A DNA stretch of 64,000 bases, taken from the NCBI RefSeq assembly GCF_002119525.1, contig NZ_CP017916.1, forward strand, positions 930,001-994,000. Reading direction: 5' to 3'. The position numbers were made by a program, and so were the translations under genes. The DNA is from Vibrio syngnathi (GTDB lineage Bacteria; Pseudomonadota; Gammaproteobacteria; Enterobacterales; Vibrionaceae). Of the stretch, positions 44,538 through 47,525 are shown in pieces; the stretch's first letter is position 1, and each line of letters begins with the position of its first letter. Below the pieces are notes generated by a model, which saw nothing but the letters and a program-made list of their open reading frames with translations, did not search any database and was not told the origin of the DNA.

Positions 44538-44569
44538 GCGGTGAGCTTGTGTGATCTCCAGATACAAAA

Positions 44570-44594
44570 AAGCCGCTGATTTCTCAGCGGCTTT
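44570..44594. terminator. Bidirectional terminator between HDAC-like gene and tRNA-Ser
   Basis: An 11-bp perfect stem AAAGCCGCTGA/TCAGCGGCTTT with loop TTC has an A run on one side and CTTT on the other. It serves convergent genes and is nearly repeated beside the second tRNA-Ser copy. Confidence 0.88.
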
Positions 44595-44602
44595 CTTTAA
44601 TG

Positions 44603-44693
44603 TGGTGGAGGGATAGGGATTTGAACCCTAGAACCGCTATTAACGGTTGCCGGTTTTCAAGACCGGTGCTTTCGACCACTCAGCCATCCCTCC
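44603..44693 (-). tRNA. tRNA-Ser (UGA), copy 1
   Basis: On the minus strand the sequence folds as a class II tRNA: acceptor GGAGGGA/TCCCTCC, anticodon stem CCGGT/ACCGG around loop CTTGAAA (anticodon TGA), a long variable arm (CAACCGTTAATAGCGGTT region), and T-loop GGTTCAAATCC. CCA is encoded. The gene is identical to the copy at 47339-47429. Confidence 0.96.
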
Positions 44694-44703
44694 AGTGCTG
44701 CGA

Positions 44704-44732
44704 ATAATATAGTGGGGCTATTCGCTTGTAAA
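44704..44732 (-). promoter_or_regulatory. Promoter of tRNA-Ser copy 1
   Basis: On the minus strand TTTACA (44727-44732) and TATTAT (44704-44709) are spaced by 17 bases and lie 10 bases before the mature tRNA 5' end. Confidence 0.75.
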
Positions 44733-44959: not shown

Positions 44960-44999
44960 TTGCCTTTGTTGTCCATAAGATTCATAATAAATACATCTT
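44960..44999 (+). promoter_or_regulatory. nsrR promoter with NsrR box
   Basis: Half-sites AAGATTCATAA and AAATACATCTT separated by one base (44977-44999) match the NsrR consensus (AAGATGCATTT-N-AAATGCATCTT) at 18 of 22 positions, or 19 counting the A/G alternative. TTGCCT (44960-44965) and CATAAT (44983-44988) with 17-bp spacing make a promoter that the box covers, implying self-repression. Confidence 0.8.
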
Positions 45000-46710: not shown

Positions 46711-46746
46711 TTGACGATTTTAAAGTTGCATTTAAAATGCATCTTT
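46711..46746 (+). promoter_or_regulatory. Second NsrR box and promoter
   Basis: Half-sites AAGTTGCATTT and AAATGCATCTT separated by one base (46723-46745) match the NsrR consensus at 21 of 22 positions. TTGACG (46711-46716) and TAAAAT (46733-46738), 16 bases apart, form a promoter whose -10 lies inside the box. The only gene downstream is the 35-aa cysteine-rich peptide. Confidence 0.88.
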
Positions 46747-46797
46747 AATATTATGTCTGCAGTGAATGACTTAAATACAATCAAAGAGAGCATGATT

Positions 46798-46905
46798 ATG
46801 AGCTGTTGTGGCGGATGTGGTGGTTCAAACCACGAAGAAAAAGCAAAAGAAGCTGAACAAAAGAAACAAGCAGAGCAGCAAGAGACTAAGCAAGAAAACG
46901 CTTAA
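46798..46905 (+). CDS. 35-aa CCGGCGG peptide under NsrR-type control
   Basis: The 35-codon frame starts at ATG 46798, seven bases after AAAGAGAG; an ATG two codons earlier is too close to that site. The product begins MSCCGGCGGSNHEE and continues as a charged Lys/Glu/Gln helix ending KQENA. Three cysteines in CCxxC with many glycines suggest metal, iron-nitrosyl or thiol chemistry; this is inference. It has its own promoter under a near-perfect NsrR box and its own terminator, so it is expressed as a separate NO-responsive unit. I do not recognise a characterised family. Confidence 0.8.
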   Translation: MSCCGGCGGSNHEEKAKEAEQKKQAEQQETKQENA

Positions 46906-46933
46906 TTAAAGCAACGCTCAAGTAAAATTTAAG

Positions 46934-46970
46934 AATCCAGAGACTTCGATGAAGCCTCTGGATTTTTTTG
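46934..46970 (+). terminator. Terminator after the CCGGCGG peptide gene
   Basis: Stem AATCCAGAG/CTCTGGATT with an inner ACTTC/GAAG-like extension is followed by seven T. Confidence 0.9.
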
Positions 46971-47300
46971 TTTTTATGGCTTCATGACGAGAGTTTAGAC
47001 ACGACTAGATCACTTCATTGAATTCGACCCTTTCAAGTGAACTTCTGTACTTGAATGACATTCATTGTTAGCTTGCTCATATCTTTCAGTACGTAGCGCC
47101 GAATTGGCTTAATGCTTAAGTCTGTGGTTTGAATACGAAGAATATTTATTACGTTGGAGTTAGTGACATTCAAATAATAATATATTGATGACAGGTTTCA
47201 GGTAGTGAGGAACAGGTTTCAATCAGTTAACTAAAATGCGGTTTCGGGAATGGTTAGTGGTTAGACTCAAACGTTAGGTTCGATGACCATACGCTAGATG
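46971..47300. other. Gene-free stretch between peptide gene and tRNA-Ser copy 2
   Basis: About 330 bases of AT-rich sequence hold no convincing open frame, RNA or palindrome. It includes two CAGGTTTCA copies (47194-47202 and 47211-47219), of unknown meaning. Confidence 0.6.
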
Positions 47301-47304
47301 CAAA

Positions 47305-47330
47305 AAAGCCGCTGATTTCTCAGCGGCTTT
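47305..47330 (-). terminator. Terminator after tRNA-Ser copy 2
   Basis: The same AAAGCCGCTGA/TCAGCGGCTTT stem as beside copy 1, but with a four-base loop TTTC, followed on the minus strand by a T run. Confidence 0.88.
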
Positions 47331-47338
47331 CTTTAATG

Positions 47339-47429
47339 TGGTGGAGGGATAGGGATTTGAACCCTAGAACCGCTATTAACGGTTGCCGGTTTTCAAGACC
47401 GGTGCTTTCGACCACTCAGCCATCCCTCC
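47339..47429 (-). tRNA. tRNA-Ser (UGA), copy 2
   Basis: This gene is base-for-base identical to the tRNA-Ser at 44603-44693, with the same anticodon TGA, long variable arm and encoded CCA. Its promoter on the minus strand is TTTACA (47463-47468) and TATTAT (47440-47445) with a 17-base spacer; the spacer and further upstream sequence differ from copy 1. Confidence 0.96.
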
Positions 47430-47525
47430 ATTGGCGTGAATAATATAAGGGGGAGAGTGCCTTGTAAACCCTTAATTATCATAATCTTGTTTGGTTGCTT
47501 GTTTTCTAGTCATTAGCGGCAATAA

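Follow-up and report, generated by a model that had tools for sequence, protein, structure and literature searches.

A small three-cysteine protein beside nsrR and nnrS in Vibrio syngnathi and its probable link to nitric oxide regulation

The nsrR-nnrS-microprotein locus

The window, that is, the whole stretch of 64,000 nucleotides of Vibrio syngnathi DNA that was analysed, contains a gene for a protein of only 35 residues behind nsrR and nnrS (Table 1). The start codon lies 114 bp beyond the nnrS stop codon and is preceded by a Shine-Dalgarno-like AGAGAG at 46785-46790 (by eye). A first-pass annotation of this DNA had described the frame, with its CCxxC motif and charged tail, and it is borne out as a real conserved gene. 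A 64-residue frame that opens at TTG 46711 and runs through the NsrR box was rejected, since the conserved part and the Shine-Dalgarno-like stretch fit the ATG; three database entries (P0019, P0026 and P0028) have a long start similar to that of the rejected frame. For the NsrR of the window, the nearest solved protein is S. coelicolor NsrR (5n07, E 1.3e-19), with which its three cluster cysteines align, and its score against the NCBIfam NsrR model is 126 bits, below the cut-off of 182 bits.

The three genes are bracketed by direct repeats of 173 nucleotides, each of which includes a tRNA gene, and it is plausible from this arrangement that nsrR, nnrS and the microprotein gene form an islet or cassette that arrived at a tRNA gene. 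Two tRNA-Ser(TGA) genes also occur at the V. splendidus locus (L123), and one occurs within 8 kb at that of V. lentus (L138).

Table 1. Features of the nsrR-nnrS-microprotein locus, with positions counted in the window
Feature	Position	Strand	Basis or remark
173-nt repeat, left copy, with tRNA-Ser(TGA)	44560..44732		sequence repeat
NsrR box AAGATTCATAATAAATACATCTT, nsrR promoter region	44977..44999	+	sole 1-mismatch place of AAGNTGYATN5ATRCANCTT in the genome, among the matches listed
nsrR, Rrf2-family repressor, 147 aa	45019..45462	+	Pfam Rrf2, E 9.1e-33
nnrS, 395 aa	45496..46683	+	Pfam NnrS, E 4.9e-106
NsrR box AAGTTGCATTTAAAATGCATCTT before the microprotein	46723..46745	+	best place in the genome, among the matches listed
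Possible promoter TTGCAT-17-TATTAT, overlapping the NsrR box	46726..46754	+	by eye; absent from the list of the scan
Microprotein MSCCGGCGGSNHEEKAKEAEQKKQAEQQETKQENA, 35 aa	46798..46905	+	ATG 46798, 35 codons, stop 46903-46905
Intrinsic terminator, hairpin and T run	about 46934..46970	+	fold z-score -4.73
173-nt repeat, right copy, 93% identical, with tRNA-Ser(TGA)	47296..47468		sequence repeat

The box in front of the microprotein agrees at 13 of 14 letters (by eye) with gATGyAT-N5-ATrCATc, the NsrR consensus published in the part of PMC1274295 consulted, and at 17 of 18 positions with AAGATGYAT-N5-ATRCATCTT, so that the box predicted by the first-pass annotation stands. The first pattern used in the genome was composed with the site in view, which makes its zero mismatches partly circular; with it, neither the window nor the rest of the genome had another place with three mismatches or fewer. 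The looser AAGNTGYATN5ATRCANCTT yielded, among the matches listed in the 4.89-Mb genome, a single place free of mismatches, the microprotein box itself, and five places with two mismatches. Four of these five, all but the one on C2, were inspected; none precedes an NO gene by eye and all four overlap longer open frames. Up to three mismatches, 88 matches per strand were counted vs 68 with a reversed control pattern, hence sites of this quality are near background. Judged by sequence, the clear NsrR targets of this genome would be nsrR-nnrS and the microprotein, and there may be weaker sites besides; for so small an NsrR regulon PMC4432287, in the part consulted, offers a precedent. The box before nsrR is itself conserved: the form AAGAT[G/T]-N11-CATCTT was read by eye in all 17 rows of relatives, which correspond to 13 distinct genomes or records.

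A separate promoter had also been claimed for the microprotein. By eye, a -35 element TTGCAT (46726-46731) and a -10 element TATTAT (46749-46754) are separated by 17 nucleotides, in which case the NsrR box would cover the -35 element and the spacer. A mechanical scan preferred TTGACG/TAAAAT at 46711-46738, and the number of promoter-like sites in this region was not above that in shuffled sequences (6 found vs 5.8 expected). The position of the promoter is thus only putative. The terminator proposed for the gene was recovered: none of 200 shuffles folded as stably, and the stem also appears in the list of the mechanical scan, but on the minus strand.

A gammaproteobacterial family under purifying selection

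By its sequence, the frame is a member of an unnamed family of gammaproteobacterial microproteins that combine M[S/G]CCGxCGG with a tail rich in E, K and Q. A protein search of 61 genomes gave matches at E <=10 in ten, of which five belong clearly to the family (that of the window, L003, L004, L005 and L006); one of these five lies behind nnrS in another family of bacteria. DNA patterns matched 28 of 394 genomes of the order, 27 of them family members by their tails and one (L027) a chance frame, and 4 of 369 genomes of the class, where the window, L178 and L179 are family and L180 is a chance frame. In a larger genome collection 106 stretches matched, and 55 passed a tail filter (start MSCCG, 22-65 residues, more than 35% E/K/Q/D in the tail); 51 were dropped, and the ones inspected among them resemble chance frames, often from genomes of high G+C content. 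Members were found in Vibrio, Psychromonas, Moritella, Shewanella, Pseudoalteromonas, Thalassotalea and Colwellia, as well as in Endozoicomonas, Motiliproteus, Oleiphilaceae, Hahellaceae, Oceanospirillaceae and gammaproteobacterial MAGs, with one record titled only Proteobacteria. The microprotein therefore spans many genera; homologues do occur in Vibrionaceae, and the family extends beyond them.

Because the DNA patterns demand the cysteines, cysteine conservation is built into the sets obtained with them. A profile search, which is less strict and needs shared five-residue words, retrieved 60 database relatives at E <=10 with the starts MSSCC, MSGSCC, MSDSCC, MGCC and, once, MSFCG. None of the 60 carries a Pfam domain. 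The few names attached to them are 'hypothetical' or 'unknown function', with the exception of 'FdhD' on P0026, the letters of which are those of the microprotein. The window microprotein matched no family in Pfam and NCBIfam, scans of 24 members against both gave weak single matches only (best E 0.03), a PDB search gave no match up to E 10, and among the open-licence papers listed none was recognised as being about this peptide.

The microprotein is under purifying selection. In comparisons that left out pairs of unequal length, pN/pS was 0.11 among six distinct coding sequences of the splendidus clade, 0.12 among ten distinct Moritella sequences, and 0.23, 0.27 and 0.28 in sets of three, three and two; for the tail by itself, a part on which the pattern places no demand, it ranged from 0.11 to 0.33. 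Between members the tails diverge strongly in sequence while their charge is kept, and the CCxxC spacing is fixed. A chance frame was rejected on account of this selection together with the family. Cargo of phages or plasmids was also considered and rejected, as the peptide had no tblastn match in the phage and plasmid collections and the region had no blastn match among plasmids.

Neighbouring genes and promoter boxes of the relatives

The most frequent neighbour is nnrS: 20 of the 55 members start 62-122 bp past an nnrS stop codon, and nsrR is also in the locus for 10 of these 20. Among the 54 members scored for boxes (L133 has too little upstream sequence), 34 are not directly behind nnrS. 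The 20 do not include L142, which lies some 860 bp past NnrS, or L125 (Shewanella insulae), a stand-alone member with an NnrS homologue in its 8-kb locus, more than 3.5 kb from the microprotein. NnrS is thus not the sole neighbour, as a copy that heads a nor-nirK cluster (see below) illustrates.

In a tree of 60 NnrS rows, from which a truncated NnrS (L173) was left out, the linkage falls into two clades. In the first (Vibrio, Psychromonas, Thalassotalea and f7; support 100/100) the microprotein follows NnrS in 21 of 23 cases, the exceptions being L186, which has none, and L194, where inserted sequence interrupts the frame and a remnant of it lies further along. In the second (support 100/100) it follows 7 of 8, and the eighth is L142. 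None of the other 29 rows has a microprotein within 700 bp. The linkage label changes four times on the tree vs 20.3 times in shuffles, none of 500 being as low, a statistic that overstates the association because many clade rows were fetched via the peptide and near-copies cluster by descent. Among NnrS proteins of the first clade fetched independently of the peptide, a small check, L181 and L185 have the microprotein, L194 is the broken case and L186 is without. A class-wide search with the NnrS of L118 gave three best matches (72, 69 and 63% identity), all with the microprotein behind; two (L240 and L241) are genomes known already, and L242, where 106 bp separate the NnrS match from the start of the microprotein, is new. 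Across the other 27 loci of that search it was seen only at the locus of the window itself. Mere co-occurrence with nnrS was discarded as evidence, since nnrS matches turn up in 53 of the 56 genomes selected, whether these have the microprotein or lack it, and do not discriminate.

Five second nnrS copies were examined in microprotein-bearing genomes (L197, L211, L213, L216 and L228), and no microprotein lies behind any of them. That of V. syngnathi (C1:712778-713896; L211:2234-3418) is preceded, by eye, by a sigma-54-like GG-N10-GC element and by GT-N7-AC repeats, which would fit NorR/sigma-54 control, and the two nnrS copies of this genome may be controlled separately by NorR and NsrR. A further observation concerns another genome of the genus (G022 C2; L006 and L212), whose nsrR-nnrS-microprotein cluster groups with Psychromonas in the NnrS tree and not with the splendidus clade, a placement that suggests horizontal transfer.

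Strong NsrR boxes precede the microprotein in the splendidus clade, another Vibrio (L106), Colwellia (L135), Thalassotalea (L130), f7 (L014) and the nor-linked copy of a Psychromonas genome (G240), so that homologues under NsrR boxes are found in other species, V. splendidus and V. lentus included. Such boxes are not general. Among the eight nnrS-linked Psychromonas members from named records, seven lack a good NsrR box (L066, L068, L078, L081, L086, L140 and L143) and L137 has a partial one; none precedes the microprotein of Thalassotalea L088 either. The nsrR promoters of the nnrS-linked Psychromonas loci and of L088 carry full boxes where read. Six of the seven box-poor Psychromonas members (all but L081) contain CACCTTAAG, which resembles half an NsrR site. 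This element lies some 50-80 nt before the microprotein start and is also seen in Vibrio L006. At 14 of 18 letters, an NsrR box was scored for 5 of 20 nnrS-linked members vs 7 of 329 control upstreams, the latter taken from other genes of the same loci. The weak boxes among nnrS-linked members imply that NsrR control is not uniform or that the box has drifted.

The stand-alone members display another element. A dyad of the type TTGATNNNNATCAA, which corresponds to the FNR box and, with an outer C and G, to the DNR motif (PMC1274295, in the part consulted), is present at 9 of 10 letters or better, at a distance of 57-79 nt from the ATG, in 15 of the 34 stand-alone members vs 14 of the 329 control upstreams (4.3%; Fisher 4.8e-10) and 1.5% of shuffles. 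The sequences scored are the very ones in which the dyad had been spotted by eye. At 8 of 10 letters it is found in 22 of 34 vs 30% of controls and 17% of shuffles, and 19 of the 34 remain below the 9-letter threshold. None of the ten members with nsrR adjacent has the dyad at 9 of 10 letters. Several relatives thus have a strong NsrR box, and many have an FNR/DNR-type box instead. Depending on the genome, nnrS itself is placed under NsrR, DNR, NnrR or NorR (PMC1274295, in the part consulted). Most neighbours of stand-alone members that were examined look unrelated to NO. The upstream region of the stand-alone Endozoicomonas member L083 scores for both an NsrR box and an FNR-type dyad, at overlapping positions. 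In two MAGs (L099 and L141) the microprotein is preceded on its own strand, at a distance of 81-287 bp, by the end of a gene for a winged-helix regulator that has a cysteine motif at its C-terminus and looks SufR-like by eye.

In the Psychromonas genome G240, which carries the broken nnrS-linked copy (L194), a whole relative, MGCCGGCGGSGHQEDKKVEEQTQQQEKSTQE, is encoded elsewhere. By eye, an NsrR box, AACTTGCATTTAAAATGCATCTT, precedes its ATG by 48 nt, and a repeat resembling a terminator follows the gene. Downstream on the same strand follow genes for a COX3-family protein, a CbbQ/NirQ/NorQ ATPase, a second COX3-family protein, a cytochrome c, a COX1-family protein and a VWA protein; the names NorE, NorQ, NorC, NorB and NorD are deduced from Pfam domains and the order of the genes, and NCBIfam gave no NorB-specific match in this cluster, only ccoN, far below its cut-off. 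NirK is encoded 9 kb further on (482 bits, cut-off 296).

Denitrification genes were compared in 19 Psychromonas and 16 Shewanella genomes, a part of the sample in which related species are not independent. nosZ is present in five of nine Psychromonas genomes with the microprotein vs one of ten without (Fisher 0.057), and in two of three vs 1 of 13 for Shewanella (Fisher 0.071); a stratified permutation over both gave p 0.005. Absence of the microprotein from the 23 genomes 'without' was checked by profile, a stray match in G236 (E 0.79) being uncounted. nirK over its cut-off accompanies the microprotein in Shewanella (3/3 vs 1/13; 0.007) and is no commoner with it in Psychromonas (1/9 vs 0/10). 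All 11 sampled Moritella genomes have the microprotein, seven have nosZ and none has nirK over the cut-off. Five genomes of the splendidus clade have neither nosZ nor nirK over the cut-off, hence denitrification is not required for the microprotein.

Possible function and relation to known systems

Taken together, these data make it very probable that a real microprotein is tied to the regulation of NO or denitrification, and its wiring to NO regulation is well supported by the genes and boxes described above. Its chemistry is another matter. Three cysteines within five residues, glycines that would allow them a flexible geometry, a hydrophilic charged tail and no evident signal sequence suggest a soluble metal-thiolate peptide, and from these features we infer induction by NO, binding of a metal or an iron-nitrosyl, a cytosolic location and a protective role. 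In V. syngnathi the microprotein would be made once NO relieves repression by NsrR, and in other lineages it is apparently switched on via an FNR/DNR-type activator. The closely spaced cysteines of the glycine-rich N-terminus would bind a soft metal centre; Met1 is probably removed, and the amino terminus could then serve as a ligand too. The likeliest ligand would be iron released or nitrosylated by NO, in the form of a thiolate-ligated iron-nitrosyl complex, or Cu(I). Since three cysteines cannot fill a four-cysteine site, dimerization or further ligands may be required. The charged tail would provide solubility.

In an excerpt of PMC9246220 that cites another work, NnrS is said to shield the iron pool against dinitrosyl iron complexes and not to remove NO itself. 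A thiolate peptide would be a natural acceptor of such complexes, and the microprotein may buffer damage of the kind that NnrS limits by keeping NO/metal species off other proteins. In the part consulted of PMC10399457, Cup1, a yeast metallothionein, confers increased tolerance of NO, and Cup1-rich lysates are better at degrading it. Regarded as a whole, with its chemistry, the picture of a three-cysteine peptide linked to NO or low O2 that binds iron-nitrosyl or Cu(I)/Fe is a tentative one, to which we give a little under an even chance.

The main rival, which we consider unlikely, holds that the peptide is not a scavenger and instead delivers Cu(I) or Fe to heme-copper NnrS or to NO and nitrite reductases. 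It draws on nnrS as the commonest neighbour in two NnrS clades, on the copy that heads nor-nirK, on the association with nosZ and, in Shewanella, nirK, and on the description of NnrS as a heme-copper-containing membrane protein (PMC1274295, in the part consulted). A delivery peptide fits less well with a gene that has its own terminator and probably its own promoter, with the 34 of 54 members that are not right behind nnrS and with the five second nnrS copies that have no microprotein behind them. Less probable again is an Fe-S or NO-sensing peptide or a protein-protein adaptor, acting as a dimer, that modulates a regulator or enzyme via its cysteines: small size, three invariant cysteines, the monocistronic appearance of both loci read in detail (the window and the G240 copy) and the SufR-like regulator next to it in two MAGs would suit this role, but strongly diverging tails do not suggest one conserved partner surface, and no conserved partner is seen outside the nnrS-linked clades. 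Cysteines behind NO-linked promoters could also act as a plain thiol sink, taking up NO as S-nitrosothiol without a metal, which we rate marginally lower than a sensor; the fixed CCxxC spacing suggests a site, and three thiols in a peptide of 35 residues add little to cell thiols, which are millimolar. That there is no protein gene, only a small regulatory RNA or a chance frame, would be in line with the short transcript predicted and its strong terminator and is very improbable, as pN/pS is 0.11-0.28 across the five sets and the frame recurs in many genera although its flanks differ.

If the peptide does bind iron-nitrosyl or Cu(I)/Fe under NO-linked control, a broader claim could follow, one that we put forward as doubtful: an unrecognised and widespread class of dedicated microproteins for iron-nitrosyl, or for NO-reactive Cu(I), would be a standard element in the defence of marine Gammaproteobacteria against NO, alongside flavohemoglobin, NnrS and NO reductase. 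Such microproteins would pass from NsrR to FNR/DNR control or back, and would change places between nnrS and nor-nir clusters. A microprotein that is found behind NnrS and before nor-nirK, and that switches regulators as nnrS does, offers a handle on the fate of iron-nitrosyls or copper. It also points to a small-protein layer in denitrification and NO defence that is annotated as hypothetical or missed, and it is short enough for synthesis and EPR.

Several known systems resemble the microprotein in part. The NCBIfam Cys-rich peptide TIGR04165 and the HypB prefix have comparable short Cys-rich N-termini, and each matched one of the 24 members scanned (E 0.03 and 0.67), which we take as chance. 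Metallothioneins, such as the plant type 2 proteins and yeast Cup1, are likewise small, have cysteine motifs and share the likely metal thiolate, but they contain many cysteines vs three here. The N-terminus of plant type 2 metallothioneins reads MSCCGG, letters in common with the microprotein that are probably convergent; no metallothionein match was obtained in the Pfam scans of 24 members or in the PDB up to E 10. NnrS shares with the microprotein its position as a neighbour in two clades and its NO-linked control, and differs as a membrane protein of about 400 residues without sequence relation. The NsrR regulon (hmp, hcp-hcr, dnrN/ytfE and nnrS) differs by the cysteine microprotein itself, such a protein being absent from the part of the text of PMC1274295 consulted. 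The resemblance to this regulon lies in the NsrR box next to nsrR-nnrS and in the exchange of NsrR for FNR/DNR-type control, which the same part of PMC1274295 describes for nnrS and other genes.
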